Below are positions 9,104-28,225 of a stretch of DNA of 64,000 bases, piece after piece. Each line of letters begins with the position of its first letter. Position 1 is the stretch's first letter. Position numbers and translations under genes: made by a program. The DNA is taken from contig NZ_NSKB01000001.1 of the NCBI RefSeq assembly GCF_002286975.1, positions 126,733 to 190,732 of the forward strand. The letters are read 5' to 3'. The notes beneath the pieces were generated by a model. The model was given only the letters and a program-made list of their open reading frames with translations. It was not told the DNA's origin and made no database searches. The DNA is from Halomonas salipaludis (GTDB taxonomy: Bacteria > Pseudomonadota > Gammaproteobacteria > Pseudomonadales > Halomonadaceae).

Positions 9104-10243
9104 ATGCGTCTGCTGCATCGTGCCTCGCCCTGGCGTGCGCTATTCGCCGGCGACGCGCCCCCCGATCCCTGTGATTGGCCACCGCTGCTGGCCCCGCTGG
9201 CCGATGCCGTGGCCGCACTGGGGCCGACGCCACGCCTTGCCGAGGCCAAGGCGTGGCAGCCGCAGCTGGTCGAGGCACTGCGGCGTCTCGACCTGCCGGC
9301 CTGGCGCATCGCCCAGCTGCTCAGCGACCATAACGACTGGCTCTACCGACAAGCCGTCGAGCAAGGCCTGAGTGCCATGCGTGGCTCCGGTTGGGGGGAG
9401 CCGCCAGCGCGCTTCTGCGTGTTGACGCTGGGCTCTGGCGCCCGCCACGAGAGCCTGCTAGGGCCGGACCAGGACAACGCGATGATTGTCGAGGACTACC
9501 CGGACCGTGCGCATACCGAGATCGACGGCTACTTCCAGGCGCTCGGCGAGCGCATGACCGATACGCTGGATGAGGCCGGTATCCCGCTGTGCAATGGCCA
9601 TGTCATGGCGCGCTGGCCGATGTGGCGCAAGCGCCTCGGCGAGTGGGGGCGTCAGTTGGAGATCTGGACCGCCGAGCGTCGCGTCAAACGCGTGCAGCAG
9701 GCCAATATTCTGCTCGATTTCCACGCCGTCTACGGTGATCCGGCGCTGGCCGAGTCGCTGCGCGACCTGGTGGTGGCACTGGTGCCGCGGGCGGCGCTGT
9801 TCCTCGACGAGATGGCCAGCCTGTTGGATGAAACCCCGGTGGCGCTTGACCGCCTCGGGCGTCTGGTCGGTGACGATGACGGCGCGCCCCACGAGCGCGC
9901 CATCAACCTCAAACGCCAGGGGCTACTGCCGCTGACCGGCAGCGTGCGCTTGCTGGCACTGCGCCAGGGGTGTCGGGCGCCTGACACCCGTGGCCGGCTC
10001 AGCGAGTTGGTCGTGGCAGGCGTGCTGGACGCGGCACGTGCTTCCGCCCTGGGCGATGCCCTGGGGCGCCTTCAGGCGCTGGTGCTGGATGCCCAGCTGA
10101 CCAGCCTGGCCGCTGGCCGTGCCGCCGATGGCTGGATCGATACGGCACGGCTCGACGACGCCCAGCGCCTGCTACTGCGTCACGATCTGCAGCAGGTTCG
10201 GCGCCTGATCAAGACGGCGAAGAGCATGGGCAACAATGGGTAA
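9104..10243 (+). CDS. DUF294-type putative nucleotidyltransferase
   Basis: 379 residues from the ATG at 9104, preceded by AAGGAG. The nucleotidyltransferase core is visible around residue 110 as GSGARHESLL, then GPDQDNAMI, giving the GS and D-x-D metal-binding elements. A later region (RAALFLDEMASLL onward) corresponds to the substrate-binding helical domain of the DUF294/DUF294_C family. Relatives usually carry N-terminal cNMP-binding and CBS domains; this copy lacks both. Genes of this family often lie beside symporter-kinases of the acetate switch, as here. Substrate unknown. Confidence 0.75.
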   Translation: MRLLHRASPWRALFAGDAPPDPCDWPPLLAPLADAVAALGPTPRLAEAKAWQPQLVEALRRLDLPAWRIAQLLSDHNDWLYRQAVEQGLSAMRGSGWGEPPARFCVLTLGSGARHESLLGPDQDNAMIVEDYPDRAHTEIDGYFQALGERMTDTLDEAGIPLCNGHVMARWPMWRKRLGEWGRQLEIWTAERRVKRVQQANILLDFHAVYGDPALAESLRDLVVALVPRAALFLDEMASLLDETPVALDRLGRLVGDDDGAPHERAINLKRQGLLPLTGSVRLLALRQGCRAPDTRGRLSELVVAGVLDAARASALGDALGRLQALVLDAQLTSLAAGRAADGWIDTARLDDAQRLLLRHDLQQVRRLIKTAKSMGNNG

Positions 10244-11551: not shown

Positions 11552-14302
11552 TTAGCTGTCGAGGGGCTGCTGGCGCTCTTCTGGGCGTGCCTCGGGGAGG
11601 TCCATTACCAGGCAGGCGCCGCCCAGGGTGGGGGCGTTCTCGACCCACAGGCGACCGCCGAGGTGGGCGACGATGCCGCGGCTGATGGGCAGGCCCAGGC
11701 CGCTGCCGCGGGGGCGTCCGCGAGCCTTGCCGCTGTCGTGCTGCTGCTTGATCTGATGGAATTTCTCGAATACCCGCTCGCGCTCCTCGGCGCTGATCCC
11801 CGGGCCGTTGTCCTCCACCGCCAGGCACCAGTGCTGCTTGTGGCGCCACAGGCGCAGGCGCACCCGCGCGGCGTGTTCGTCGGCAAACTTGCTGGCGTTG
11901 TCGAGCAGGTTGATGATCACCTGTTCGAGGCGGTCCGGGTCGCCGATCACCCAGGCCTCATCGGCCTCGATGTCGACGCTCAGTGTTACGCCCCGCTCCT
12001 CCTGCACGCGCTGCACCGCGGCCACGCTCTGGCGTGCCAGGGCGGCGAGATCCAGCGGCTGGGGATTGAGGGTCAAGCGCCCGCTCTCGAGACGTGCCAG
12101 GTCGAGAATCTCTTCGATCAGCCGCGACAGTCGCTGGCTCTCGAGTACCATCACATCGAGGAAGTGAGCGCGCTTGTCGTCGGGCAACGTCTGGCCGTCG
12201 CGAAGGATTTCGGCGAAGGCGCGAATCGAGGTCAAGGGGGTGCGCAGCTCGTGACTGACCATGGCGACGAACTCGTCCTTGAGGCGGTCGAGTTCGCGCA
12301 GCCGCTCGTTGGCGGCGCGCAGCTCCTCGCCGATGCGCGCCAGCTCGGCGGACTTCTGTTCCAGGCGTCGGTTGTATTCGAGGGTCTGGGAGGTGGTGTC
12401 GAGGATGCTCAGCACGGCTTCCAGATCGAGTGCCTCGCCGCGCACCACCGAGTTGATCAGCACCCGCGCCGAGGCGCTGCCCAGCGCCCCGGTCAGGGCC
12501 TGCTCGGCGCTGGCGATGACCTCGGAGGGTACCGCCTGCTGGTCGTCGTCGTGCTGGCCGGCGAACACCCGCGCCGCGGCCGCCGCCCCCAGGTAGCGGG
12601 CCAGTAGCGCTTCCAGCTCGCCGCGGGTGGTCTGGCCCTGCCACAGGCTGGCGTAGCTGAGTCCGGAATTAAGGGCTTCGGTAAAGAGTGCTGCCTGGGT
12701 CTGCTCGAGACGGCTTTGGCGCGTGAACAGCGACACTCCTACCAGTACGCCGACGTTGGCCAGCAGGCTCCACAGCAGCGAGTGGCTGTAGATATCGGCA
12801 TTCTCGAGGCCGAACAGGGCATAGGGGCGCAGCCAGGCGATGCCCAGCGGGCCGGCCTCGACGAAGCCGGGGGCGAGCCAGCCGGACTGGGCGAAGCCGG
12901 GCAGCAGCAGGGTATAGACCCAGACCAGGAAACCGGCGATCAGGCCGAAGGTGGCGCCGAGGCGGGTTGCGCCGCGCCAGTAGAGGCCGAGTAGCAGCGC
13001 CGGTGCGAACTGGCAGGCGGCGGCGAACGACACCAGGCCGATGGTGACCAGGCTGTAGGAGTCACCGACCAGCGCGTGGTAGAGGTAGCCGAGCAGCAGG
13101 ATCAGTACGATGGCGACCCGGCGAATGCCCAGTAGCCAGCCGGTGAGTTCGACCTGCGAGCCGAGGTGCAAACGCGAGGAGCGCAGCAGCAGCGGCATCA
13201 CCAGGTGGTTGCTGACCATGGTCGACAGGGCGATGGTCTCGACGATGACCATGCCGGTGGCCGCCGACAGCCCGCCGATGAAGACCAGCAGCGGCAGCCC
13301 CTCGAGGCCCGCCGAGAGCGGCAGGGTGAGCACGAAGCTATCGGGGTCGCTGGCGCCGTTGCCGATCAGCATGCCGGCCATGGCGATGGGGATCACGAAC
13401 AGGTTGATGGCCAGCAGGTAGAGCGGGAACAGCCAGCTGGCGCGTTTTAGGTGGCGCTCGTCGACGTTTTCCACCACCAGCACCTGGAACTGACGGGGCA
13501 GGGTCAGGAAGGCCAGGAATGCCAGCACCAGGGTGCCGACCCAGCCCAAAGCGCCGCCGGGCACGGCGTCGAGGCTCAGTGCATCGACCAGCGCCGGGTG
13601 CTCGGCGGTACGCGCGAACAGGTCGGCGGGGCCGTGGAATAGCACGAAGACCGTGAAGATACCCACCGCCAGGAAGGCCACCAGCTTGACCAGTGACTCG
13701 AAGGCAATTGCCGCGACCATGCCCTCGTGGCGCTCGCTGGCGTCGAGGTGGCGGGTGCCAAAGAGAATGATGAACACCGCCAGCACTAGCGCCACCCAGA
13801 ACGACTTGTCGATCCAGAAGCTCTCTTCGGCCAGGCGCAGCTCGGGCGGTGCCGGGTAGTTGACCAGCACGGCATGGCTCAGGGTGATGGCCTTGAGCTG
13901 CAGGGCAATATAGGGGGTGATACCGATCAGCGCGATCAGTGCGACCAGCGCGCCGAGGCTGCCGCTCTTGCCGTAGCGGGCACTGATGAAGTCGGCAATG
14001 GAGGTGATGCGCTGGGCGCGGGCGATGCGCACCATCTTTCGGATCAGGAACGGCGCGGCGAGCATCGCCAGCGTGGGGCCCAGGTAGATCAGCAGGAAGC
14101 TGGGGCCGTGCTCGGCGGCGCGGCCGACGCTGCCGTAGAAGGTCCAGGCGGTGCAGTAGACGGCGATCGACAGCGCATAGATGGTTGGCGAGCCGATCAG
14201 CGAACGGCCCTGCTCGGCGCGGCGGTCGCCCCAGGCGGCGATCACGAACAGCAGCGCCAGGTAGCCGAAGGCCACCGTCAATACCAGCGGCTCGGCCCTC
14301 AT
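11552..14302 (-). CDS. Sodium/solute symporter-histidine kinase (CrbS/CbrA-like)
   Basis: 916 residues. Residues 1 to about 490 form a multi-spanning sodium:solute symporter domain (YCTAWTFYGSVG and SARYGKSGSLGALVALIALI are characteristic). A coiled-coil linker leads to a HisKA domain with phospho-acceptor His684 in MVSHELRTPL, then HATPase boxes INLLDNASKF, VEDNGPGI and GSGLGLPI. Family members include CrbS, MxtR (acetate metabolism) and CbrA (amino acids, histidine). The DUF294 gene and exonuclease neighbours resemble the CrbS setting, but no acs or actP is in the window. The cognate regulator may be the lone receiver 2.3 kb upstream in the same operon. Signal specificity is inference. Confidence 0.88.
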   Translation of the reverse strand: MRAEPLVLTVAFGYLALLFVIAAWGDRRAEQGRSLIGSPTIYALSIAVYCTAWTFYGSVGRAAEHGPSFLLIYLGPTLAMLAAPFLIRKMVRIARAQRITSIADFISARYGKSGSLGALVALIALIGITPYIALQLKAITLSHAVLVNYPAPPELRLAEESFWIDKSFWVALVLAVFIILFGTRHLDASERHEGMVAAIAFESLVKLVAFLAVGIFTVFVLFHGPADLFARTAEHPALVDALSLDAVPGGALGWVGTLVLAFLAFLTLPRQFQVLVVENVDERHLKRASWLFPLYLLAINLFVIPIAMAGMLIGNGASDPDSFVLTLPLSAGLEGLPLLVFIGGLSAATGMVIVETIALSTMVSNHLVMPLLLRSSRLHLGSQVELTGWLLGIRRVAIVLILLLGYLYHALVGDSYSLVTIGLVSFAAACQFAPALLLGLYWRGATRLGATFGLIAGFLVWVYTLLLPGFAQSGWLAPGFVEAGPLGIAWLRPYALFGLENADIYSHSLLWSLLANVGVLVGVSLFTRQSRLEQTQAALFTEALNSGLSYASLWQGQTTRGELEALLARYLGAAAAARVFAGQHDDDQQAVPSEVIASAEQALTGALGSASARVLINSVVRGEALDLEAVLSILDTTSQTLEYNRRLEQKSAELARIGEELRAANERLRELDRLKDEFVAMVSHELRTPLTSIRAFAEILRDGQTLPDDKRAHFLDVMVLESQRLSRLIEEILDLARLESGRLTLNPQPLDLAALARQSVAAVQRVQEERGVTLSVDIEADEAWVIGDPDRLEQVIINLLDNASKFADEHAARVRLRLWRHKQHWCLAVEDNGPGISAEERERVFEKFHQIKQQHDSGKARGRPRGSGLGLPISRGIVAHLGGRLWVENAPTLGGACLVMDLPEARPEERQQPLDS

Positions 14303-14571
14303 TGCGACCCTCGCGGCGGCTCAGCGGGCGGTGCATCGGATTGGTGCTGCTGTGTGGCGTCGTCGCTGCGCCCGCCTGGTTCGTGGCGATGTTCGAGCAG
14401 CCAGGCGGCCAGTGTGATGACCAGCGCCCAGGCAATGAACAGGTAGAGCGGCAGCCACGACAGGCCGTTGGTGGCGGGGCGGTCGGCGACCAGGATCAGC
14501 GGCGGGCTGAACAGCACCAGCGCGACGCCGATCAGGGCGACCAGCCGCTCACCGAGGCGTGGCGTCTTCAT
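14299..14571 (-). CDS. Small two-span membrane protein of the symporter-kinase operon
   Basis: 90 residues, with hydrophobic segments at about 10-28 and 40-60 and a polar Gln/Ser/Pro-rich tail. Its stop overlaps the start of the symporter-kinase (ATGA), and its start overlaps the stop of the exonuclease-sensor gene, so all three are translationally coupled. In acetate-symporter operons a small DUF4212/DUF485-like membrane protein accompanies ActP. This one occupies the equivalent position beside a symporter-like kinase, but I cannot assign it to those families by sequence. Confidence 0.7.
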   Translation of the reverse strand: MKTPRLGERLVALIGVALVLFSPPLILVADRPATNGLSWLPLYLFIAWALVITLAAWLLEHRHEPGGRSDDATQQHQSDAPPAEPPRGSQ

Positions 14572-16649
14572 GCGCTGGCGTCCTCACGATCGAAGGCGCC
14601 GGCCTGCAGGGTCAGTGCTTCCTGCAGGGTGATCACGCCGCGTGCCTCCAGGCGTGGCAGCAGTGCCAGCCATAGCTCGGCGGTGAGGCGGGCATCGCCC
14701 AACGCGGTATGCCGGGCGCCCTCGGGTACGCTGAGGTCGAAGCGGCTGGCCAGGCTGTCGAGGTCGTGGCCGTCGAGGCTGGGGTCGAGAGCCCGCGACA
14801 GCAGCAGGGTGTCGAGCACCGGTAGCTGGAAGTCGACGCCGGCGCCGGGGGGCTGGATCGCCAGCAGGTCGAAGGCGGCGTTGTGGGCCAGTAGTACCGC
14901 TTCGCCGACATAGCGGCGAAAGCGTGGCAGCACTACATGCAGCGGCGGGGCGCCGGCCACGTCGGCATCGCGCAGGCCATGGATCACGGTGCTGGCCGGC
15001 GGAATCGGGCGGCCGGGGTCGACGCGCGCATCGAAGGTGTCGTCGGCGAGCAGGCGGGCGTTGACCACCCGGCAGGCGCCGAGGCTGATCACCGTATCGC
15101 CACGACGCAGCTCGAGCCCGGTGGTCTCGGTATCGAAGGCGACGATCTCCAGCGCGCGCAGTGAGCAGGCCGCCAGCTCGGCATCCGGCGGCGGCAGGTC
15201 GGCGATGCCGAAGTCGTGGAACTCCGGGCGCGGCGCCTTGTGGGCGGCGGGGGCGCCAACCCGCTCTACCGCAGGCAGTGGCAGCCGCAGCCGGGCGTGC
15301 TCACCGTCGGCATCGGCCAGGCTCCAGGCGTCACTGCCGTGCTGCTGGAGCAACTCGCCGATGCTCGGCGCCAGTGGCAGGCTCTCCAGGCGCTGGTCGT
15401 GCCACTCGGCCAGGGTGCGCTGGGGCAGCGGCGTACCGCGCCAGATCAGATCGAGATAGACGCGACGATTGCCCAGACAGAGTTCGCCTTCCAGGGCATG
15501 GCTTCCGGTGGCCTGGTGGAGCCGCTCGAGCAGCGCCTCGAGCAGCGCCAGCAGCGCCGGGGCGTCACCCTTGAACCAGGCTGGCATGCCGATCGGCGTG
15601 ACCCGCGGCAGTTCGGGCAGATGATCGAGGCGCTCGTTGAGCGACTGCCAGAGGTCGTTGGACCACAGCGGCACCAGCCGCTCGCCCTGCTGCTGCAGGT
15701 CGTCGATGCGCTGACCCAGGCGTTCGATCTCGGCGGTCAGCGCACGACTCTCTTCGTCGATGACGGCGCTGATGCGGGTACGTAGATCGCCGGCCTCGGC
15801 GTGTTGAGCATCCAGTCGAGTCAGGGTCTCGGCGGCGCTGGCAAGCCCCGCGCCGTGACGGCGCAGGGCCGGCAGCAGCTCGCCGAGGGCGGCGCGGGTG
15901 TGGCTTTCGCCGGTGAGGCTGGCGGTGGTGTCGGTCAGCGTGATTAGGGTCTCGCCCTGGCTTTGCGGTACGCGCTTGAGCAGGCAGCGCAGCCAGCGTT
16001 CGTCGCTGGGCACCAGCAGTTCGCGGGGGGCGCCGTCGTCGGGCAGCCGTGCCAGGGCGTCCTGTAGGCTGGCCACGCCGATCAGCCCCTCCAGGCGCTT
16101 GCCCAGGCCCAACCCGGGATGGCCGTCGAACAGCGTCTCGGCGGCGTGATTGAACAGCAGCAGGCGGCGGTGCTGGTCGCACAGCAGCAGCGGCATCTCC
16201 AACACCTGTAGCAGCGACTCCAGCTCGAGGCGGATGCGTGCCGCGCTGCGCGCGCCGTCGGTGTGGGCGGTGGCCAACAGCTGGCGGTCCTGGCGCCAGC
16301 CATCGCGCAGCCTGGCCAGGTCTGGCCCCAACCCCTTGAGCCAGCCTTCGGGGGGGTAGTCGTCGCGGGCATCGGGATTGGCCGCCAGGCGTGCCATCTG
16401 TACTTGCAGGTGGCGCAGTGGGGTGAACAGGCGGCGCTCTAGCACTAGCCCCAGCAGCAGGGTCAGTACGCCGCCGCCCAGGCTACCGGCCCAGAGCGCC
16501 ACGCGCTGTACGCCGCTGGGAGCCAGTTCGGCATCCAGCCACAGCGCCAGCAGGGCGCCGCTGAAGAAGGCTAGCCCGCTGACCAGTAGCCAGATACCCA
16601 CCAGGCGCTGGCGACGGGGCAGGTGGCCGCGGGCAGGGCGCGGCGCCAT
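14568..16649 (-). CDS. Membrane sensor fused to DEDDh 3'-5' exonuclease
   Basis: 693 residues. Two membrane spans (about 15-40 and 48-70) are followed by a HAMP/coiled region, a PAS-like segment around LLLCDQHRRLLLFNHAAE (about 150-230), a long helical region, and a C-terminal DnaQ-type exonuclease (about 500-670). All exonuclease residues are present: Asp506 and Glu508 in FDTETTG, the Asp of AHNAAFD, and the His and Asp of HTALGDAR. The gene overlaps the receiver gene upstream (TGATG) and the small membrane protein downstream. A membrane-anchored sensor with an exonuclease output is unusual. Substrate (DNA, RNA or nucleotide) is unknown. Confidence 0.82.
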   Translation of the reverse strand: MAPRPARGHLPRRQRLVGIWLLVSGLAFFSGALLALWLDAELAPSGVQRVALWAGSLGGGVLTLLLGLVLERRLFTPLRHLQVQMARLAANPDARDDYPPEGWLKGLGPDLARLRDGWRQDRQLLATAHTDGARSAARIRLELESLLQVLEMPLLLCDQHRRLLLFNHAAETLFDGHPGLGLGKRLEGLIGVASLQDALARLPDDGAPRELLVPSDERWLRCLLKRVPQSQGETLITLTDTTASLTGESHTRAALGELLPALRRHGAGLASAAETLTRLDAQHAEAGDLRTRISAVIDEESRALTAEIERLGQRIDDLQQQGERLVPLWSNDLWQSLNERLDHLPELPRVTPIGMPAWFKGDAPALLALLEALLERLHQATGSHALEGELCLGNRRVYLDLIWRGTPLPQRTLAEWHDQRLESLPLAPSIGELLQQHGSDAWSLADADGEHARLRLPLPAVERVGAPAAHKAPRPEFHDFGIADLPPPDAELAACSLRALEIVAFDTETTGLELRRGDTVISLGACRVVNARLLADDTFDARVDPGRPIPPASTVIHGLRDADVAGAPPLHVVLPRFRRYVGEAVLLAHNAAFDLLAIQPPGAGVDFQLPVLDTLLLSRALDPSLDGHDLDSLASRFDLSVPEGARHTALGDARLTAELWLALLPRLEARGVITLQEALTLQAGAFDREDASA

Positions 16650-17175: not shown

Positions 17176-19347
17176 TTACGGCGTCCCTGAGCGGATTCGG
17201 TCGAGAATGATCGATGCAATATCCCTGCGCGCCTGAGGGTCCTGCTCCACCAGTTCCAGCAGGGCGTCGCGCGGGATGGCCAGGGTCTCTACCGGGCCAT
17301 CCGCTGTCACCCGTACCGTTGCCGTTCGCGCTCTGGCTTCGAGAATGCCGATTTCGCCAAAATGGTCGCCTGGCTGGAGCGTTGCCACCTGCTGCGTGCC
17401 GTTCGCATCCTCGATCAGCACAGCAACCGTCCCGGTGAGCAGGATGTAAAACCAGTCGGCATCATCGCCCTGGCGAATGATGGTGTCGTCGGCCTCGAAG
17501 CGTTTCAGCGAGCCGGTTCCAGCCAACGTTCTCAGCCGCTCTGAGGTGAGCGCAGGCAGGGCTTTGTGCACACGGGTTGTGAGGTAGCGCTGGCGCAGCG
17601 CGGCCGCGATTTCGCCGGGCACCAGATCATCCTTGAGCACGATGGCCAGGAAGTCGTCCCGGGTCATCTCCAGCACCAGCGTGGGGGTAGTCGATAGACA
17701 GTTGGCGGTTCTGCGACCCTCCCCAAGCAGTCCGATTTCGCCAAAGTAGTTGCCTGGCTCGAGGCTGGCCAGGTGTTCATTCGATCCCGACGTTACCTCG
17801 ACAGTACCTTCGATCAGGACATGGAATGTCTCGGCCTGCTCTCCCTTACGTAGGATGTAATCACCGGACTCATGGCGGCGTGGGGTCACATTGTCGAGTC
17901 TTTCGCGCATGGCGGGTTTCGCCAGGCGGCCACTTTCGAAAAGCTCATCGAGTGCGTTGACGGCAAGTTGCGTGTGATCCGTCTTTCCCGCCGCATGCTC
18001 GCTGCGCTCGTCAATAAAACGGATACGGAACTTGCGATCGGGTGCCGGCAGCGGAGCGAGGACGGTGCGCAGCGGATCATTGGCCGGTACGCGCTCGAAG
18101 GTGCGTCGGTGAATGATCCGGCTGATCGAAACCAGGGTGCAGGTCTCTACCAGCCCCCCTGCTGGGCAGACGCGTTTGCCATATCCGTAAGGCGCGTATG
18201 CACGGCGCTGTTTGTGTTCATTGCGTGGTGCGCGGCACCGGTCTGGATCGAAGCGGTGAGGCTGCGGATAAAAGTCGGCACTGAAGTGGTTAGGGACCCC
18301 GCTATAGACGCAGAATTGCCCCTTGGGAACCGTGTGGCCGTTGAATTCGAAAGGTTCATCGACCATGAATGGCATGCCCAGCGACACCGGATGTAGCCGC
18401 ATCGACTCCTTGAGCGCCGCATTCAGCGTGCTCATGCCGCGCAGGTCGAGGCTGTCGGGCAGCCCGTTGGCATAGGCGCCGTCGACCTCTTCGCGCACGC
18501 GCTCGTAGTGTTCGGGGTTCGATAGCAGGTCGTGCAGAAGGAAGGCGACCGTGCGGTTCATATACACCACGGTACCGATAATGCCGTACTGCAGCGTTGC
18601 CACCAGATCCTTGCGCGGCAGCGGGTTGCCGTCATCGTCTGTGGCGCTGACCAGGGCATCCAGGATCGTATACGGCATGCCATGGTCTGCCGGGCGATTT
18701 TCATAGCGCGTGAGTACCTCATCCGCCATCTTCATGACGTCGCGCCGCAGCTTTTTGTAGGCCGGCAGATGGACGCTGAACTCCGGCACCTTCTTGACGC
18801 CTATGTTCATTACCCACACCGCGTAGCGGTTGGCGGTATCGAAGTAGGCGTCCAGGCTCTCACCACACAGTAACCGGCTGTATTGATCGAAGCTGACGCG
18901 CGTGCATAGATCCATCACCGACACGGTGCTGCCCGGCGGATGTCGATCCAGGCCCTCATCCACGCAGCCGACGAGGTCGGGAATAAACTCTGCGGCCAAC
19001 TGACGGGAAAACGCCAGGCGTGCCTGATTGCGCAGATTCTGATACGCCCCAACGGGCTGCGTCAGCAGCACGACACCCCCGATCTGTTTGTCCACCGGAC
19101 CGAAAAACGCCTCCCGGCTCATGCCCTGCTCGCGGAATTCCAGCAGATGGTTCAGCGATTCCGGGCCGGCCATGATGGTGTAATTGCGAAACAGGTAGTT
19201 GACCTGAAACACCGGGCCGAGCTTCTCGTAGGCCTCACTGAAAAACCGATTGGCGTCTTTGGTCAGCAACTCGATCGTGTTGCCGAGCAGGGGTAAGCCA
19301 GGCAGGCTGGGTGGGGGCGTGGACTCGGTGGACTTCGAATCAGTCAT
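17176..19347 (-). CDS. Cytochrome P450 fused to two cyclic-nucleotide-binding domains
   Basis: 723 residues from the ATG at 19347 (an in-frame TTG directly precedes it). The P450 domain spans about 10-450: proline-rich start PSLPGLPLLGN, K-helix KESMRLHP (ExxR), PERF-like HRFDPDR, and heme loop YGYGKRVCPAGG with ligand Cys394. The loop deviates from FxxGxRxCxG at the Phe (Tyr) and last Gly (Ala). The I-helix reads GIIGTVVYMNRT and lacks the usual AGxDT acid-alcohol pair. Two cNMP domains follow (about 490-590 and 610-715), each with a phosphate-binding cassette: FGEIGLL-x4-RTAN and FGEIGIL-x4-RTAT. It lies 90 bp downstream of a squalene-synthase-like gene. Substrate, ligand and redox partner are unknown. 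Confidence 0.9.
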   Translation of the reverse strand: MTDSKSTESTPPPSLPGLPLLGNTIELLTKDANRFFSEAYEKLGPVFQVNYLFRNYTIMAGPESLNHLLEFREQGMSREAFFGPVDKQIGGVVLLTQPVGAYQNLRNQARLAFSRQLAAEFIPDLVGCVDEGLDRHPPGSTVSVMDLCTRVSFDQYSRLLCGESLDAYFDTANRYAVWVMNIGVKKVPEFSVHLPAYKKLRRDVMKMADEVLTRYENRPADHGMPYTILDALVSATDDDGNPLPRKDLVATLQYGIIGTVVYMNRTVAFLLHDLLSNPEHYERVREEVDGAYANGLPDSLDLRGMSTLNAALKESMRLHPVSLGMPFMVDEPFEFNGHTVPKGQFCVYSGVPNHFSADFYPQPHRFDPDRCRAPRNEHKQRRAYAPYGYGKRVCPAGGLVETCTLVSISRIIHRRTFERVPANDPLRTVLAPLPAPDRKFRIRFIDERSEHAAGKTDHTQLAVNALDELFESGRLAKPAMRERLDNVTPRRHESGDYILRKGEQAETFHVLIEGTVEVTSGSNEHLASLEPGNYFGEIGLLGEGRRTANCLSTTPTLVLEMTRDDFLAIVLKDDLVPGEIAAALRQRYLTTRVHKALPALTSERLRTLAGTGSLKRFEADDTIIRQGDDADWFYILLTGTVAVLIEDANGTQQVATLQPGDHFGEIGILEARARTATVRVTADGPVETLAIPRDALLELVEQDPQARRDIASIILDRIRSGTP

Positions 19348-19437
19348 CAAGCAGATTCCTGTTGTTGGGTGCTTGTCCGGCGATAGGCTGCATGCTGGTG
19401 GCGCTGCGCCAGACTGAGAAAAGCGCGGGGCGCATCT

Positions 19438-20496
19438 TCATGCATTTCTGTCATGGCCCGCCTGCAGGCGGTCGACTTCCTGTTCCTGAACGCTGGGCAG
19501 TCGGTAGCAGCTCAGCCGAAAGACACCTCGCAGCAGCGTATCGTTGACGACCGTGAGATTATTCGTGGCCACGATCATGCGCAGGCGTCGCCGCGAGATC
19601 TTGACCTGCTCGCTGGCAGTGAAGCCTGGATTGTTGGCAATGTTGCGCAGCGTCGAGAGCGCCATACCGATCGACCAGCTGCAGAAGCGGCGAATGCCGA
19701 CCTCAGAGGCGGGAATGCGCAGCGTATACTCTTGCGCCTGGCGCAGATGATGATGCGCAACGGCGACCAGAAAACGGATCCCGTCGCGATAGCCGGGATG
19801 ATTCTGCCAGTCATGTATCCGCATCAGGTCAACGCCACGCGCCGCGAAGACGTCGCGCGGGAGCCAGCAGATACTGCGCTGGCGATCATCCCAGACGTCT
19901 TTCAGAATGTTGGTCAACTGCAGTCCCTGGCCGAAGGCCAGCGACAGGCGCCGAAGCTCTTCGCGCTGGGCGTGGATTGTCGGATTGATCTCGGCGAACA
20001 GCCGAGTCAGCATTTCGCCAACGCAGCCAGCAGCCACGTAGCAGTAATCGCGCAGGCTGTCACTGTCTTCGAGCCCATACGGGTTCTTGAGACGTTCGAA
20101 ATTCGCCATGCCGTGGCACATGGTGGTTAAGCAATCGCGCAATGCCTGCTGCTGATCGACCGGCAATTCGCCGAAGGCGAGCAGTACGCCGGGTGTCTGG
20201 TCGATGAGTTCCCGTTCCAGGGGGGCTTGTACCAGTCCGGTAGCGAGCAGCGCCTCGGAGAACTTCCGGGCGGCGATGGGGTTATTCAGCCCATCCAGCA
20301 GGCGCTGGTAATGAGCGTCTTTTTCGTCGGGCGCCATGGCGGTGCTATCTTCCACCGTGTCGGCAATACGGCACAGTAAATAGGCATTGGTGATCGCCGG
20401 GCGCAGCGAAATCGGCAACTGCGGAATGGTCAGCGCAAAGGTCCGAGAAACGCCGGGCAGCAGCCGGTTCTGTAGGGCGAGCGAGGCATGCCTCAT
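19438..20496 (-). CDS. Squalene/phytoene synthase-like prenyltransferase
   Basis: 352 residues, the squalene-synthase length. Both aspartate-rich motifs that bind magnesium-diphosphate are present: DTVED (Asp46-Asp50) and, in NILKDVWDD, DVWDD near residue 203. The block CYVAAGCVGEMLTRLF matches the conserved central helix. The family joins two prenyl diphosphates head-to-head. No hopanoid genes (hpnC/E, shc) or carotenoid genes lie nearby, so the product cannot be named. It is the promoter-proximal gene of a two-gene unit with the P450-cNMP fusion and is divergent from ispH, which supplies isoprenoid precursors. Confidence 0.9.
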   Translation of the reverse strand: MRHASLALQNRLLPGVSRTFALTIPQLPISLRPAITNAYLLCRIADTVEDSTAMAPDEKDAHYQRLLDGLNNPIAARKFSEALLATGLVQAPLERELIDQTPGVLLAFGELPVDQQQALRDCLTTMCHGMANFERLKNPYGLEDSDSLRDYCYVAAGCVGEMLTRLFAEINPTIHAQREELRRLSLAFGQGLQLTNILKDVWDDRQRSICWLPRDVFAARGVDLMRIHDWQNHPGYRDGIRFLVAVAHHHLRQAQEYTLRIPASEVGIRRFCSWSIGMALSTLRNIANNPGFTASEQVKISRRRLRMIVATNNLTVVNDTLLRGVFRLSCYRLPSVQEQEVDRLQAGHDRNA

Positions 20497-21058
20497 AGCA
20501 ACGTCATCTCCGATGTCGGGAGCAGGTATATTTCCCGCTCAAGCCAGATCATATTGAATGCCTCCGACCTCTCGGGATTGACGTGGAAAAGGCTCTCAGC
20601 GATACACAAGGCAGGTTTTCTTACCTACATGCAGCCGGGCTATTCTGTTCGATTGGCCGCATCTACAGGCGTTAACCAGTAATTCACGGAAGCAAGGCCG
20701 CTGGATTGAAAGCGTACCGGCCCGGTCAGCGCCCTGCAACGACCCCGTTCACGTTAGGCCGGCTTTTTCATCAGGGTGATGGTCACCACTTATATTCCTT
20801 TTTCGTCTAGATGGCCTTTCATCTATAGCATTTCTTGCAAAATGCCGGGCATGAGCGCAGGCGGGCTCATCGGCCATCGACAGGCTTTCCCAGTTTGTGA
20901 TTGGATCGGGGTGGGCATTAACCCCCCCACTGGCAGGGCGTACTCTGAGCCTCGAGATCGAAGCTTCGATGCCAGGCTAGCGCTGACGCCATCAAAGGCG
21001 TCGTGTAGTGTAAAGGCACTCTCCATTTCTAGCGATGCAGTGGCATCAAGGCGTGAGC
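20497..21058. other. Long divergent intergenic region between the prenyl synthase gene and ispH
   Basis: 562 bp without a convincing gene. It holds an inverted repeat GGTGA-TGG-TCACC at 20775-20787, an AT-rich stretch around 20787-20840, and a weak promoter-like pair on the plus strand (TTGACG near 20578, poor -10). A lone TGTGA near 20898 lacks the second half needed for a CRP site. The region must carry the promoters of both divergent units. Confidence 0.5.
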
Positions 21059-22066
21059 ATGGCTTCTGAAACAGCTTCCAAGGCGCTTCCAGAAACGACA
21101 GGCGAATCTCCCGTGCAGATCATGCTGGCCAATCCGCGCGGATTTTGTGCTGGGGTCAACCGGGCTATCGACATTGTCAATCGCGCTTTGGATGTATTTG
21201 GCCCGCCGATTTACGTGCGCCATGAAGTCGTCCATAACCGTTTTGTGGTCGAATCGCTACGCGAGCGTGGCGCGGTATTCGTCGAAGAGCTGGATGAAGT
21301 GCCGGATGACGTCATTGTGATTTTTTCTGCCCATGGCGTGTCGCGTGCAGTGCAGCAAGATGCCGAGCGGCGCGGTTTGAAAGTCTTCGACGCCACCTGC
21401 CCACTGGTTACCAAGGTTCACATGGAAGTGCTGCGCTACGCCAAGCGCGGCCAGGAGTGTGTGCTGATCGGTCACGCAGGACATCCCGAAGTGGCAGGCA
21501 CCATGGGGCGCTACGACACCTTCCACGGTGGCCGCATCTATCTCGTCGAGGATGAACACGACGCCGCCAATCTGGAGGTCAAGAATCCTGCCCAGCTGGC
21601 ATTCGTGACCCAGACGACGCTTTCGATGGATGATACCGCCAAGGTGATTGACGTCTTGCGGAGCAAATTCCCCGAGATCAGTGGCCCGCGAACGGATGAT
21701 ATTTGCTATGCCACCCAGAATCGCCAGGATGCGGTGCGTGAGTTGGCCGCTAAGAGCGATCTGGTGCTAGTGGTCGGTAGTGCCAATAGTTCCAACTCCA
21801 ATCGCCTGCGTGAGCTCTCCGAGAGCATAGGCAAACCGGCGTATTTGATCGACAGCGCCGAGCAGATCGATGCGAGCTGGCTGGATAACGTGCAGCGCGT
21901 GGGTGTCACTGCCGGTGCCAGCGCGCCCGAAGTGCTGGTGAAAGGCGTGATTGAACGGCTTAAATCCCTCGGTGCCGCCGTACCAGAAGAACTGGCAGGT
22001 TGCGAAGAAACCATCACGTTCTCCATGCCCTATGAGCTACGTCAGCAGGTGATTGCTAGCAGCTGA
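21059..22066 (+). CDS. ispH: 4-hydroxy-3-methylbut-2-enyl diphosphate reductase
   Basis: 335 residues from the ATG at 21059 (AAGG 6-7 nt upstream; an ATG at 21035 is possible). The three cluster-ligand cysteines are in [19 protein letters not shown] and [10 protein letters not shown], and the SAHGVS and GHAGHPEV motifs are intact. It makes IPP and DMAPP, the last step of the MEP pathway. The N-terminus is about 25 residues longer than E. coli IspH. In most gammaproteobacteria ispH follows lspA-fkpB; here it stands alone opposite a prenyl synthase gene. It could therefore be a second, pathway-dedicated copy. Enzyme identity is secure, paralogy is inference. Confidence 0.95.
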
Positions 22067-22225: not shown

Positions 22226-24433
22226 ATGGCATCAAAGACTCCCATCCGTACCTACAAGCGCTATTGGCACTGGTTGCAGTACGCTGGCGGTGTGTTGATC
22301 GTGATGCTGTTGCTTGTCGAGAAAACGGGCCTGCTGCCCTTCCCGTTGTTGGAGCGCCTGGAGTGGCAGGCTTACGACATGAAGGTGCGCAGCACCTTGT
22401 CGGAACAGGCGGACGCCTCCCTGGCCATTATCGACATTGACGAGCGCAGCCTTTACGAAGTGGGGCAATGGCCATGGCCGCGGGCTACGCTTGCGGATCT
22501 GGTGGACACGCTGTTCACCGAGTACGAGGCAGGGTTGCTGGGCATCGATGTGGTCTTTGCCGAACCTGAAACCTCGCTATGGCAACGGCACTGGGAGGAG
22601 CTCTCCCGCGATTACCCGGCGCTCGGTGAACTGCCGCCGCCTGTCGATGGCGACGAGCAGTTGTCGAACGCCCTGGCGGCCCACCCTGTTGTACTTGGTT
22701 ACTATTTCCAGGCGTCACGCCAACCCGGGGATCCGCCCTCTGTCGGGCAGTTGCCTCGCCCGGCGCTCCTAGAGGCGTCTGACCCGCTGCCGTTTCCTGC
22801 GCCCGAGCGCTATACCGCCAACCTGCCGATCCTGCAACAGAGCGCGATGAATGCGGGGTTTTTCGATAACCCGCGTGTGGACGACGACGGTGTATTTCGT
22901 CGCGTGCCCATGCTGCAACGTTGGGAGGGGGAGCTTTACCCCAACCTGCCGTTGGCGATGTTGCTCACGCTGCTGGGCGAGCCACCGATCACAGCGGTGC
23001 TGGGGGAGGGCGCTGGGGTGACGCAGTTGGAAGCCCTTGACGTCGGCGGGTTCGAGATCCCGGTGGATGGTCGTGGCGCCGCCCTGGTGCCCTGGTACGG
23101 GGCGCAAGGGCATTTCGACTATATTCCGGCAGTCGATGTGCTGGAGGGGCGCCTGGAGCCGGGGGCGCTGGCGGGAAAGACGCTGATACTGGGGGCCTCC
23201 GCCCCTGGATTGATGGATTTGCGCTCCACGCCGGTGGGGGGCGTCTACCCCGGGCCCGAGATCAACCTCAGCCTGCTGGCCGGCATGCTGCACCAGAGCA
23301 TCCACGCCCAGCCGCCGTGGGTGCTCGGGTTCGAGCTCGTGAGCCTGGTGGCCCTGGGCATGCTGATGGTGCTGCTCTATCCGCATCTCAATGCGCTACT
23401 GCTGGTCGCGATCAGTAGCGTACTGCTGGCGACGGCGCTAGGCGGTAACCTGTGGGCGTGGTATCAGGGGCTTGCGTTGCCCATCGCCGGCTTGCTGGTG
23501 CTGCTGGTGGCCCAGATGATGTGGCACCTGGCGATGAACTTTCTGCGCGAAACCCAGCAGAAGCGCTGGGTGGCCGAGCGCTTCGGACAGTACATTCCAC
23601 CACAGCTGGTGGAGGACATGGTCGATAGCGGCGAAAGCTTCGGGTTGGAAGGGGAGGAGCGTGAGCTCACCGTGCTGTTCTCGGATGTACGCGGCTTTAC
23701 CGCCTTTTCAGAGGCCATTGCGCCTGCAGAGCTTACTGAGGTGATGAACCGGCTGTTGACGCCGCTGACCGGCGCGATCCATCAGCACCGCGGTACCATC
23801 GACAAGTATATGGGCGATGCCATCATGGCGTTCTGGGGCGCACCGCTGCACGACACGCAACACGCCGAGCATGCGCTCGAGGGCGCCTTTGCCATGCTCG
23901 ACGCGCTCGAGGCCGTCAACCGCGAATTCATGGCCGAGGGCAAACCCGCACTGGCCATGGGGGTAGGGCTCAATACTGGCCCCATGAGCGTGGGCAACAT
24001 GGGCTCCAGCTTTCGCATGGCGTATACGGTGATGGGCGATAACGTCAACCTTGGCTCGCGCCTGGAGGGGTTGACCAAGGCCTATGGCGTGAGCGTGATC
24101 GTCAGCGAGAATACCGCCAAGCAGTTGCCCAGCTGGTGTTTCAGACGCTTGGATAAGGTGCGGGTGAAAGGTCGCAGCGCGCCGCTGTGGATTCTCGAGC
24201 CGCTCGGCCGCCAGGAGGCGCTGGGCGAATCACGGCGCGAGTGGCACGCCGCGTACGAGCAGGCGCTGGATCTCTATCACGCGGCGGATTTTGCTGCCGC
24301 CGGGCGCGCCTTCCAGGCGCTATCCGACCGGCAAGACGCTCCCACCCAGATGTACCTTGAGCGCATCGCGCTGTTCAAGGCAGCCCCACCCCCATCCGAC
24401 TGGGATGGGGTATGGACGCATACGGAGAAGTGA
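22226..24433 (+). CDS. CHASE2-domain adenylate cyclase
   Basis: 735 residues, with GAGGAA upstream of the ATG. One N-terminal span (about 20-38), a periplasmic CHASE2 sensor (about 45-375), three closely spaced spans (about 380-465) and a class III cyclase domain (about 480-665). Metal ligands are Asp487 (FSDVRGFT) and Asp531 (KYMGD); Lys527 and Asp605 (MGDNVN) are the pair that selects adenine; Asn608 and Arg612 are the transition-state residues. All are present, so it should make cAMP. It is convergent with the FecR gene, 11 bp apart, and lies 5 kb from a P450 carrying cNMP-binding domains. The CHASE2 ligand is unknown. Confidence 0.93.
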   Translation: MASKTPIRTYKRYWHWLQYAGGVLIVMLLLVEKTGLLPFPLLERLEWQAYDMKVRSTLSEQADASLAIIDIDERSLYEVGQWPWPRATLADLVDTLFTEYEAGLLGIDVVFAEPETSLWQRHWEELSRDYPALGELPPPVDGDEQLSNALAAHPVVLGYYFQASRQPGDPPSVGQLPRPALLEASDPLPFPAPERYTANLPILQQSAMNAGFFDNPRVDDDGVFRRVPMLQRWEGELYPNLPLAMLLTLLGEPPITAVLGEGAGVTQLEALDVGGFEIPVDGRGAALVPWYGAQGHFDYIPAVDVLEGRLEPGALAGKTLILGASAPGLMDLRSTPVGGVYPGPEINLSLLAGMLHQSIHAQPPWVLGFELVSLVALGMLMVLLYPHLNALLLVAISSVLLATALGGNLWAWYQGLALPIAGLLVLLVAQMMWHLAMNFLRETQQKRWVAERFGQYIPPQLVEDMVDSGESFGLEGEERELTVLFSDVRGFTAFSEAIAPAELTEVMNRLLTPLTGAIHQHRGTIDKYMGDAIMAFWGAPLHDTQHAEHALEGAFAMLDALEAVNREFMAEGKPALAMGVGLNTGPMSVGNMGSSFRMAYTVMGDNVNLGSRLEGLTKAYGVSVIVSENTAKQLPSWCFRRLDKVRVKGRSAPLWILEPLGRQEALGESRREWHAAYEQALDLYHAADFAAAGRAFQALSDRQDAPTQMYLERIALFKAAPPPSDWDGVWTHTEK

Positions 24434-24444
24434 GGTTATCTGGG

Positions 24445-26031
24445 TTATTCAGGTTGAGGTCCGATTTCTTCGAACACGCCGGTACCGCTGTAGTTGCCGA
24501 TATCGCCCCAGGTTTCAATTAGGCTCATGATGGCGGCGGCGTCTTCGCCGATATAGCGGCCTGTGAAATTTCCGCCGTCGAAGCAGCCGCTACCACCACA
24601 GGTCACATCATCTAGCGGAATATTGGCGAGAGAGAAGCTTTCAGTTGCCACGCTGCCGGACAGTGTGCCAAATCCATCGAGATGAATCTCAATTTCAATA
24701 CCACCAATGCCACCAACGTTGGAAAGCTCAATAGAGCTGTCGCTGAGAATAGGGATGATATCGCCACCTTCGTGGGGTACCAGCCCGGTGCCATCCACCC
24801 AGCTAAATGTAACGGAAGCCAATTCATCAATCTCGAAGGGATACGCTTCGTTTATCGTTAACTCCGGTGAGGCGGCGATAAAGACGACCGATTCCGGCAG
24901 CACATCGGTAGTGCCGTCCAACGTCACTTCCTGCCCGCTCTCCCAGTAGCCCCACACCACCTCGCCCGTTTCAATTTCTCTGGAACTCTGCGCGAAAGGC
25001 GGTGTGTTGGACTCATATAGCGCACCTATATAGTCAGTTCCGACGACGGTGGTCAGCGTGTTTTCAAAGACAACGGGCTCAAAGTCTAACCACGGCTCTG
25101 GTTCAGGCTCAGGCTCTGGTTCAGGCTCGGGTTCTGGTTCTGGTTCTGGTTCTGGTTCGGGCTCGGGCTCGGGCTCTGGTTCGGGCTCTGGTTCAGGCTC
25201 AGGCTCAGGCTCAGGCTCCGGAGCGGGGGTGGACGCGATGACATCTTCGGCATCACGCTCTGTATCGATCAGCTGTTCACTGCTCTCGGATTCACTCAGG
25301 GTGGCCTGCAGGTCCGCCGTATCCACGGGCGTCAGCGCTATTTCTTCGAAAAACGTGCTGCCCTGGGGCATGCTCTCCTCGAGTTGATCGAAGATACCGA
25401 TGCCACCCGGTGCCAGGCGCGGCGGTTCATCCAACGCAGGGGAGAAATAGACCTGGCCAGGGCGCACCAGGGTTTCGCCGGCGGCGGTGGACATGACCAG
25501 CAGGCCGCTTTCCACATAGAGGTAACTGCCGGCTTCGACGTCGGGCAGGGAGGGTATTCCTTGCTCGGGAACATGCAGCATTTGGAAGCTGGTCCCGCGG
25601 ATGCCCATGGTGGCGACCGGGGTGCTGTGGGTGACATTGTCAGGCGCGTCTCGGCCAATGGCGCCGGTGATGGCACGCAGGCCGCCGCGCACGAGCTCGC
25701 CACCCTGGGCGGAGTCTTCCGGGCTATCGTCATCGAGTTCATAGCGCTCGAGGGTGTAGCTGCTGTCTGGGCGAATGGCCTTGGTGCCGCCATCGCTGTA
25801 GCGCAGCTGTAGCGTGCTGGCACCTGCGGTGTGGAAGGTGTCACCGGCAAAGAAGTCGGCGCCACGTTCCGCGGCAATGCGTTCGCCATTGCGTTCGATG
25901 GTGGCGCTGCCGTGAACGAACATGACCTGCCCGGCAGGCGTGTCTGCGTGGGCGAGCATGGGCAGCAGCCCGGCACCAGCAATACCCAGCGATAGGCAGT
26001 GTGCCAGGGGATGTTTGGCAAAGAGGTTCAT
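24445..26031 (-). CDS. Secreted FecR-domain protein with Glu-Pro repeat and C-terminal barrel-like domain
   Basis: 528 residues. A signal peptide (about 1-29, ending LAHA) is followed by a FecR domain (about 34-180: [17 protein letters not shown], then [13 protein letters not shown]). Next comes a linker with 21 Glu-Pro dipeptides (25093-25218), then a beta-rich C-terminal region ending in [14 protein letters not shown] and YSGTGVFEE. That ending resembles the TbpB-like barrel found in Slam-dependent cargo. There is no lipobox. It begins 11 bp downstream of the TPR/beta-barrel gene. FecR domains sit in the periplasm in iron signalling, but no sigma/anti-sigma pair is nearby, so the role is likely structural or sensory. 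Confidence 0.8.
25093..25218 (-). repeat. 6-bp tandem repeat encoding 21 Glu-Pro dipeptides
   Basis: The minus strand alternates GAG/GAA and CCT/CCC/CCG/CCA codons, giving an uninterrupted EP dipeptide array inside the FecR gene. Third positions vary somewhat, so the array is maintained as protein as well as DNA. Such a linker would be extended, stiff and acidic. Slippage could change its length. Confidence 0.9.
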
Positions 26032-26042
26032 GTCCGGCTCCG

Positions 26043-27455
26043 TCAGAAAAGGTAGCGAATGCCGACTTGTGTCTGGCGGCGGCTCGTATCGAAGAAGTCG
26101 ACCGACGATCGACGGCGCTCGACATCGGCACTGGCCTCTACCAGCCAGTCCCTGCTGAACTGGTAAAGCCAGGTGAGACGGGCCTGCCAGATACGGTCGC
26201 GGCGCTGCGTGGCGGAAAAATCGTTGAAGCGTGCGAAGCCGTCGTCTTGATAGCTGCGCAGGCGATGATTCAGGTCGGCGCGCAACAGCTGTCGCTCACC
26301 GATGGGGTAGTCCACGCCGCCGCCCAGGCGAAGCTGAGTCACGTCGCCGCCCTCGCGGTCGTCGTTAGCCCACTCCTGCTCGACCTGGGCCACCAGACGT
26401 GTGCGCCATGCCGAGTGGTGGCTGGTGAGTTGAATGCCAAGCAGGCCGGTATCATGGTCGTTTCTCGCGTCACTATAGCGGTTGTGCTGGACACCCAGCT
26501 GCCAAGTCAGCTCGCTGTCGAGCCCAATCGGTTGGCTGAGTTCCGCGCGGCTGCCCCAGCGAGTCAGCAGGCGGTCCTGGCTGCGCCCACTCCAGCCCTG
26601 CAGTGCAGCGCCGCGCAGTGTGAAGACGCGCTGCTGCGCCAGGTCGCGCTGGTAGCCTAGCTCGGCCTGCGCCAGGGTTAGATCGTAATCCTGTGCCGCT
26701 TCCCGGCTATAGCGCTGCGCCTGGCCCACGGCATTGAGCAGCCAGCGCGACTGCCCATCCACCGGGAAGGTCCCCTGGTAGCTGCCTTGTAACCGCTGAT
26801 AGGTACTCGAATCGCGGGCAAATATCTGCGGCTGAGGTATAGAGCTCTCGTCAATCTCAATATCTGGATGGGCGAGCAAGGTCTCGATGGCATCACGTCT
26901 ATTAGGCTGCAACGGGTCAATAGCGACCTCACCGGGAAAGCGCTGGGGATTACTGTCATGGCCGATGTCGATGCCAAAACGCCCTTGGTGCTGCGGGCTG
27001 TTCTCCGCGTGTTGGCGCTGCTCGATCGCGGCTTGAAAGCGCCCGATCGCTGCCTCTGCGTCAGGGGGCGGCGAGAGTGCCTGCAGGCGCTCGATCTCGC
27101 GTTCCGCGGCGGCACGCTGGTCGAGTTGCAATAGCGCCGCCACACGCTCCATGCGGGCACCTGCGTGGCGTGGTTGCCGGAGAATGACGCGCTCCAGCGC
27201 GATCAGGGCGTGGCTTGGCGCCCCGGCACGTAGAGCGGCTACGCCCAGCCAGTAATCGAATTCAGGCTCGCCGCCGTATTCTAGCTCAAGCGCTTGAAGC
27301 TGCTGGTAGGCGGCCTGATGTTCGCCTTGTTCGAGGGTCTGGCGGGCTGCGTCGAGGTCGGCGTGATAGGCCCAGGCGGATGAACAGAGCAGCACGAAGA
27401 GAACACCCACCCGTGAGGCGAGCCGGGCCGGCGAGAAGGTGAAAATTCGCCTCAT
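26043..27455 (-). CDS. TPR plus beta-barrel outer-membrane protein (Slam/DUF560-like)
   Basis: 470 residues from the ATG at 27455, which has GGAG upstream and overlaps the phosphodiesterase stop (ATGA). A signal peptide (ending SSAWA) is followed by TPR-like helices (about 30-180: [38 protein letters not shown]). The second half has alternating amphipathic strands typical of an outer-membrane barrel, ending in IRYLF with terminal Phe. Slam proteins have this TPR-barrel plan and move adjacent cargo to the surface; the next gene, with a TbpB-like C-terminus, fits as cargo. Slam membership is a pattern-based guess; barrel and TPR are clearer. Confidence 0.75.
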
Positions 27456-28225
27456 GATGGAAGGCTCCAGGTCAATGAATCGGGTAGCGCATGCTGCAGT
27501 TCGGTAAAAATCTGCTCGCGAAGGCTGGGCTTCAGGTGAGTGACCCAGAGTGTCTTGGGAGGTGAATCGAGGCTGGCAAGCAGCGCGGTTAGACGGTGTG
27601 GCGTCAAGTGACAAGCGATTTCGGCCAGGGCATCAAGGTGGTTGGCAAAGGCACACTCGATGACCAGGCAGTCGAGTGTGCCTAATCGATTGAGCGATGC
27701 TGTCACGCTGACATCGAGGCCGGTGTCGCCACTGAAAGCGAATTTCATCGTGTCGTCACTCACCAGGTAGCCGCATGCGGGCACGCTGTGGGAGACGGGA
27801 AAGGGGGTGATGGTCAGCGATTCTCCCCCAATAGTGGGGAGCGTGAGAGCGTCCCACGGGCTTAGGGGAGAAAAGCGCAATACGGCATTATCGGAGGAGG
27901 GCAAGGTGCTGAAGTCCGGCCAGATAGCGCCATTGAAGATATGCCGTTTGAGTGTCTCGATCACCTCGGGCAGCGCATAGACCGTCAGGGCCGTCTCCTG
28001 CTCGACCATTCTTTCGTATTGGGTGTCGATGAGCAGGGGCAGGCTTGCAATGTGATCGAGGTGGGCATGGGTGAGCAGCACGCTGTCGATACATGCCATC
28101 TGAGCCGGGGTGAGTTGCTGGACGCCGGTGCCAGCATCCAGCAGCAGGTTCGGTGCGAGCAGGAAAGCGGTGGTGCCTTCCCGGCTTTCGATTCCGCCGC
28201 TGGCCCCCAGTGTCTGAATGTGCAT
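27452..28225 (-). CDS. Class II-type cyclic nucleotide phosphodiesterase (metallo-beta-lactamase fold)
   Basis: 257 residues. The metal-binding motif HAHLDHIASL matches the class II PDE signature (HxHLDH). Further ligands are visible in FPVSHSVPACGY, FSGDTGLD, ECAFAN and VTHLKPS. The N-terminus MHIQTLGASGG is the usual first strand of this family. It would hydrolyse cAMP to AMP in the cytoplasm; no signal peptide is apparent. First gene of an operon coupled by ATGA to the barrel gene and followed by the FecR gene, facing the adenylate cyclase. Another MBL substrate cannot be excluded by sequence alone. Confidence 0.8.
   Translation of the reverse strand: MHIQTLGASGGIESREGTTAFLLAPNLLLDAGTGVQQLTPAQMACIDSVLLTHAHLDHIASLPLLIDTQYERMVEQETALTVYALPEVIETLKRHIFNGAIWPDFSTLPSSDNAVLRFSPLSPWDALTLPTIGGESLTITPFPVSHSVPACGYLVSDDTMKFAFSGDTGLDVSVTASLNRLGTLDCLVIECAFANHLDALAEIACHLTPHRLTALLASLDSPPKTLWVTHLKPSLREQIFTELQHALPDSLTWSLPS

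Follow-up and report, generated by a model that had tools for sequence, protein, structure and literature searches.

CYP51 and CYP120 act on C30 or other isoprenoid substrates. They are the best PDB matches (CYP51: 6mi0 and 6mcw, presumably from Methylococcus; CYP120: 2ve3) to the P450 domain of a protein encoded on a 64,000-nucleotide stretch of Halomonas salipaludis DNA (contig NZ_NSKB01000001.1, positions 126,733 to 190,732; here called the window), in which a cytochrome P450 is fused to two cyclic-nucleotide-binding (cNMP) domains and encoded next to a squalene-synthase-like enzyme. Unlike the fusion, CYP51 and CYP120 carry no cNMP domains, and no sterol-type cyclase was detected in the H. 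salipaludis genome (G000, 5.48 Mb). The best plasmid match to the fusion (29.4%) is a P450 of Planktothrix agardhii (NZ_LR882940.1, WP_227398350.1), whose gene adjoins an annotated squalene/phytoene synthase gene near an annotated cyclase-type gene in what appears to be a triterpene-type cluster. This P450 differs from the fusion in having no cNMP domain (Pfam) and in keeping the I-helix sequence GGMETA. The plasmid cluster (L085) contains several P450 genes besides the synthase and the cyclase-type gene. As the closest theme in the literature, proteins with cNMP domains are genetically tied to terpene enzymes in cyanobacterial geosmin clusters (PMC4558948) and in family 2B encapsulins (PMC8346489, PMC12407261), according to excerpts of these papers. 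In the encapsulins the cNMP domain lies within the shell protein, whereas no capsid-type Pfam domain is present among 10 window proteins tested. We tentatively read the Halomonas protein as a cyclic-nucleotide-controlled heme enzyme of the P450 superfamily whose substrate is linear squalene or a C30 intermediate and whose reaction may differ from ordinary monooxygenation, and rate this reading at somewhat below an even chance.

The fusion gene is located on the minus strand at 17179-19350 (17176-19350 with the stop codon). It encodes 724 amino acids from a TTG at 19350 or 723 from the ATG at 19347, the codon right after the TTG; residue numbers follow the 724-residue form throughout. According to Pfam and the listing of open reading frames (ORFs), the P450 and both cNMP-binding domains are encoded in one unbroken frame. 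The p450 model PF00067 matches residues 13-426 with 134.9 bits (cut-off 22.8), and the domain as a whole spans residues 13 to about 448 (18007-19314, minus strand). The cNMP_binding model PF00027 matches two stretches, with a whole-protein score of 140.4 bits (cut-off 27.5), which correspond to a first domain at about residues 481-585 (17596-17910, minus strand) and a second at about residues 601-724 (17179-17550, minus strand). These matches bear out a first-pass annotation of this DNA, which had described a 723-residue chain with a complete P450 and two cNMP domains.

Full-length fusions were identified in three of 201 genomes of the family Halomonadaceae: that of H. salipaludis, G170 (taken as Billgrantia montanilacus, locus L002) and G128 (taken as Halomonas salicampi, locus L001). 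The G170 and G128 proteins are 92-95% identical to that of the window, and the synthase gene is adjacent in both. Among 369 genomes of the class, the fusion is present in G000 and in one member of another family, G561 (47% identity over residues 10-719); 398 genomes of the phylum contained none except that of G000. The three samples overlap, and since at most five (family), three (class) or two (phylum) candidates were scored per genome, all counts are lower bounds. They agree with the earlier description of a soluble P450-cNMP fusion as rare. That annotation had also named absence from relatives as the mark of an assembly artefact. Instead, the full-length fusion recurs in G170, G128 and G561, so that an artefact or a frame error is ruled out. 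The ORF is under purifying selection (see below) and is neither a product of chance nor a chimera. Spread by plasmids or phages was rejected, as none of 274 matching plasmid records covers 80% of the fusion query in one place and there is a single weak phage match. In locus L074 a phospholipid-methyltransferase-type gene (9384-9836) lies 25 bp downstream of the distant fusion on the same strand; it passes the cut-off for PEMT, not that for ICMT, and its product could methylate an oxidised isoprenoid. A published P450-cNMP fusion was not recognised in the open-access literature searched. Sequence comparison adds four points to the first-pass annotation: the loss of the I-helix pair in all four fusions, the squalene route without a detected cyclase, a probably acquired second ispH and the optional pairing with the synthase. 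That annotation had also passed over a nucleotide-cyclase-type gene near the synthase and the deviating heme loop.

The PF00067 score places the window protein in the P450 superfamily, and the ExxR motif (E315-R318 in this protein) and the heme cysteine are present in all four fusions. The heme-ligand cysteine, which had been given as Cys394 in the 723-residue numbering, is C395 in PYGYGKRVCPAG (18166-18168, minus strand; assigned by alignment), and a PERF-like FDPDR is found at residues 367-371. The heme loop deviates at Y388 and A397 from the usual pattern FxxGxRxCxG. A further change affects the I-helix, in which the usual AGx(D/E)TT is replaced by G259-T-V-V-Y-M264 (18559-18576, minus strand). 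All four fusions read GT[VI]VYM in the alignments, with V262 at the position of the acid and Y263 at that of the Thr; the AGx(D/E)T pair of a canonical P450 monooxygenase is absent from each of them. In one alignment, the oxygen-activation Thr is retained in 14 of 15 non-fusion P450s and in none of the four fusions. A phmmer alignment with CYP51 (6mi0) is gapless across the I-helix and places AGHHTS opposite GTVVYM; the alignment with CYP120 (2ve3) is gapped in this region. CYP74, prostacyclin and thromboxane synthases and the CYP152 peroxygenases perform other chemistry without the canonical I-helix pair, and none of these enzymes is among the best 60 of 391 PDB matches to the fusion. That a conserved Thr of the I-helix takes part in oxygen activation is widely accepted for P450s (excerpts of PMC4262458). 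The replacement of acid and Thr by Val and Tyr in all four fusions raises the possibility that the enzyme catalyses something other than an ordinary O2-dependent hydroxylation. The chemistry would then be non-standard; substrate-assisted monooxygenation is also possible.

Both cNMP domains contain an intact phosphate-binding cassette, as had been claimed: FGEIGLLGEGRRTA at residue 536 (17704-17745) in the first and FGEIGILEARARTA at residue 664 (17320-17361) in the second. Both fit the form FGE...R(T/A)A, and the Glu, Arg and Thr of both are preserved in all four fusions, down to 47% identity. A longer PROSITE-like pattern matches the second domain only. A Thr follows the Arg in both cassettes, which does not settle between cAMP and cGMP. 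The nearest PDB matches of the tandem cNMP part are domains of the protein kinase G/A type and a multi-domain protein of Toxoplasma. The domains may bind a cyclic nucleotide and gate the P450. Comparison of the three close genomes gives ratios of nonsynonymous to synonymous substitution rates (dN/dS) of 0.03-0.05 in the P450 part; the values for the cNMP part and the synthase are 0.11-0.14 and 0.18-0.22, respectively. Identities between the G561 and window proteins are 218/436 in the P450, 60/105 in the first and 45/124 in the second cNMP domain, and 9/32 in the linker. From these identities and the low dN/dS it follows that the fusion architecture is maintained by purifying selection, which is strongest in the P450.

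The squalene-synthase-like enzyme (352 amino acids; 19438-20496, minus strand) is the only SQS_PSY match of the genome (187.2 bits). It has both Asp-rich motifs, DTVED (residue 46) and NILKDVWDD (residue 196), and thus the domain and motifs of a squalene synthase. As stated in the first-pass annotation, the P450 begins 90 bp downstream if counted to the ATG (87 bp to the TTG). According to ORF coordinates, the gap is equally long in L001 and L002, despite a diverged sequence. TIGR01559 gave the best score of the six NCBIfam models listed (110 bits; HpnD 78, HpnC 65, CrtB at most 41), below its equivalog cut-off of 286.75 bits. A homologue with a fused squalene-hopene cyclase reaches a similar score (107.1 bits), so the low value is no argument against squalene as the product. 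The neighbour had been proposed to make a C30 or C40 product. A C30 product is plausible, given the likeness to squalene synthases and the Planktothrix cluster; a C40 product is unlikely. A carotenoid-type synthase is disfavoured, since the squalene synthase model scores above CrtB and squalene synthases head the PDB matches.

One SQS_PSY match each was found in G000, G170 and G128 and two in G561, where they are HpnC and HpnD. HpnE adjoins HpnD there, and HpnC, HpnD and HpnE each score above their NCBIfam cut-offs. The observation that no hopanoid genes lie near the window's fusion could be extended to whole genomes: PF13243, which covers squalene-hopene and oxidosqualene cyclases, matched in none of the four fusion genomes, and the same search was positive in two of 14 control genomes. 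Squalene production is thus expected in all four fusion genomes, with no cyclase detected in any of them. This co-occurrence is suggestive and not proof, because the segment is closely related in three of the genomes and squalene routes are not uncommon. Elsewhere, members of the synthase family lie in squalene/hopanoid loci. Of 18 synthase loci fetched from class genomes other than G561, 15 were resolved (L097, L101 and L104 were left out; three ORFs were examined per side), and in eight of these a squalene-hopene-cyclase-like protein is adjacent or fused (BLAST clustering, verified with hidden Markov models (HMMs) in L096 and L099). In L099 (3030-6161) a squalene synthase and a squalene-hopene cyclase form a single ORF of 1043 amino acids. 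A cluster nearest to HpnG occurs in 10 of 20 loci; its representative scores 157.6 bits, below the cut-off of 187.1. Within the family, the distant locus of G005 carries a squalene-hopene cyclase, and an IDI-type gene lies beside the synthase in five genomes (HMM-verified in L141 and L142).

A second copy of ispH (ispH2; 21035-22066, plus strand) is encoded divergently from the synthase. It is 81% identical to the other ispH of the genome (C3:18909-19886). Two ispH copies are present in three of 58 ispH-positive genomes (61 searched). Synthase homologues (E <= 1e-10) occur in 17 of 201 family genomes, 11 of them forming a close clade (73-100% identity); among these 11, G000, G170, G035 and G049 have two ispH copies, and in these four genomes ispH2 lies beside the synthase. 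The synthase-side copies share 91% identity with the lone ispH of G128 and 81% with the other copy of G000, which disfavours ispH2 as a native gene. Branch lengths of an unrooted tree of eight ispH sequences agree with the identities; the native copies of G170, G035 and G049 and the partial ispH of G187 were left out of it. Thus, ispH2 is probably an acquired copy. In G128, reading of the sequence places ispH beside lspA, ileS and ribF, followed by murJ, a GST gene, the synthase and the P450. The segment may have come from a relative similar to G128 and been trimmed, with ispH kept. Its retention beside the synthase fits a role in precursor supply, and hitchhiking is also possible; ispH2 was not accepted as proof of a dedicated pathway, as the segment may simply have brought it in. 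GC content at third codon positions is 0.73 for the P450 and the synthase and 0.65 for ispH2, compared with 0.81, 0.85 and 0.89 for the genes RR, exo and NaHK. The next gene, EAL-HDOD, likewise has 0.73, so that the low values lend weak support to acquisition.

A possible source of the ligand is encoded 1.7 kb from the synthase. The gene at 22226-24433 (plus strand) codes for a CHASE2 sensor with a class III nucleotide cyclase (Pfam), in which the cyclase motifs SDVRGF, DKYMGD and VMGDNVN were located; these are presumably of the adenylate cyclase type. The corresponding gene lies past ispH2, with one extra gene between, in G170 and about 15 kb from the synthase in G128; no match was obtained in the 20-kb loci around the synthases of G049 and G035. 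This cyclase may supply the ligand; it was not accepted as a proven partner of the fusion, since its neighbours are FecR and TPR genes and it may belong with them. The region 22226-28225 encodes the cyclase, a FecR-like protein with a long Glu-Pro repeat, a TPR/beta-barrel protein and a protein of the metallo-beta-lactamase fold. The last exceeds the cut-off of the class II cAMP phosphodiesterase model (62.3 bits) and scores higher with Lactamase_B_2 (81); all four proteins have homologues in the G170 locus. In L002 (2171-2821; B. montanilacus) a putative membrane protein of 216 amino acids with a C-terminal cNMP-type domain, recognised by eye, is encoded between ispH2 and the CHASE2 cyclase. 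This ORF is absent from the window. On the other side of the fusion, the window encodes a symporter-like histidine kinase (11552-14302; 916 amino acids, recognised by eye) and a 693-residue exonuclease-domain protein with a long N-terminal part (14568-16649), next to a lone response regulator.

In the mechanism that we propose, binding of a cyclic nucleotide to the two C-terminal cNMP domains would control the P450 domain. The adjacent synthase would provide the substrate, either linear squalene or a C30 intermediate formed before it, and ispH2 would supply extra precursor. When the level of the cyclic nucleotide shifts, the P450 would change or remove squalene, which would otherwise remain in the membrane because no cyclase was detected. 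Candidate reactions are those of a peroxygenase, an isomerase or a dehydratase, or substrate-assisted chemistry. Excerpts of three papers on haloalkaliphiles (PMC5487899, PMC4158274, PMC7691419) describe squalene as a component of the membrane with a possible role in limiting proton leakage. The proposal in its fullest form, a cyclic-nucleotide-gated P450 with non-monooxygenase chemistry on linear squalene in bacteria that use uncyclised squalene as a membrane lipid, is doubtful.

Several observations weigh against this reading. Three of the four fusions share 92-95% identity and could go back to a single transfer history, which in effect leaves two events of co-occurrence with a squalene route. 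Synthase homologues are not rare in the class (80 of 369 genomes at E <= 1e-20), and HpnC, HpnD and HpnE in G561 could therefore be there by chance. The absence of PF13243 matches leaves room for an unrelated cyclase. The first-pass annotation had named a synthase conserved without the P450 as a refutation, and such synthases exist: in the close clade, three of 11 genomes contain the fusion and eight have the synthase without the P450, which makes the pairing optional, and G561 has HpnC, HpnD and HpnE and lacks this synthase. No redox-partner domain is present among the 10 window proteins tested with Pfam. The Gly of the heme loop is replaced by Ser in the G561 fusion as well (alignment). The predicted structure of the fusion had a pLDDT (predicted local distance difference test) score of only 31.8 and was not used, so that the mapping of the I-helix rests on alignment. 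Changes at the I-helix Thr are also seen outside the fusions: the non-fusion P450 of L038 has a Tyr at this position, preceded by a gap, and of two Planktothrix P450s aligned, one retains the Thr and the other has Pro. The L038 gene was also found in L079 (8183-10213) as an ORF of 676 amino acids, in which the P450 lies behind about 200 residues of other sequence.

These non-fusion P450s without the Thr also speak for an ordinary O2-dependent monooxygenase that acts on squalene or another terpenoid under allosteric control by the cNMP domains. The missing Thr would then be offset by substrate-assisted proton delivery; in P450eryF, such delivery compensates for a missing I-helix Thr. The intact Cys, ExxR and PERF-like motifs and the strong purifying selection fit an ordinary monooxygenase as well. 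The acid and the Thr are replaced alike in all four fusions, down to 47% identity, however, which looks like selection for a different use, and we consider a monooxygenase possible, though clearly the lesser prospect.

The cNMP domains could also have lost cyclic nucleotide binding and now serve as a scaffold for oligomerisation, for contact with the membrane or a partner, or for another ligand. In support of this, the rate of evolution is higher in the cNMP part than in the P450, and in family 2B encapsulins the cNMP domains have retained their fold and are reported in the excerpts of PMC12407261 not to bind cyclic nucleotides. The same excerpts ascribe that loss to divergent binding-site residues, whereas the Glu, Arg and Thr of the fusion cassettes are intact throughout, and a non-binding scaffold seems unlikely.

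Still less probable is that the P450 has nothing to do with the synthase, breaks down or detoxifies some other compound and merely shares the acquired segment. Apart from the eight close-clade genomes with the synthase alone, two points favour this: its distant relatives L036 and L037 lie among genes that look catabolic in our reading of the sequences, and in four genomes its position is taken by GST-type genes. The gene directly downstream of the synthase is the P450 in G000, G170 and G128 and an antiparallel GST-type gene in G049, G035, G012 and G187; the other four close-clade loci have neither of the two there. An HMM confirmed the GST assignment in L113 and also in L001, where the gene flanks the synthase on its other side. 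The P450 nevertheless adjoins the synthase in the same direction and with an equal gap in all three family genomes, and the fourth fusion genome, too, combines a squalene route with the lack of a detected cyclase. In G128 the P450 lies between the synthase and an SprA-related gene; the synthase locus of G187 carries an IS4/5-type transposase (L136, 7186-7935) between GST-type and SprA-related-type genes. A sterol pathway with a CYP51 is disfavoured, since no cyclase was detected and the CYP51 B' motif PxFGxxVx(F/Y)D (pifgrgvvfd in 6mi0) is absent from the fusion, which has dkqiggvvll in the aligned stretch.

Regulation of P450s usually takes place at transcription or through redox partners, and direct control by a second messenger within one chain would be unusual. 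The absence of the oxygen-activation pair makes the fusion a candidate for unusual heme chemistry. If its substrate is squalene, it bears on the fate of squalene in halophiles in which no cyclase is detected. A regulated squalene enzyme would let a haloalkaliphile cell tune its squalene, and second-messenger signalling would be tied directly to the isoprenoid composition of the membrane through a heme enzyme.

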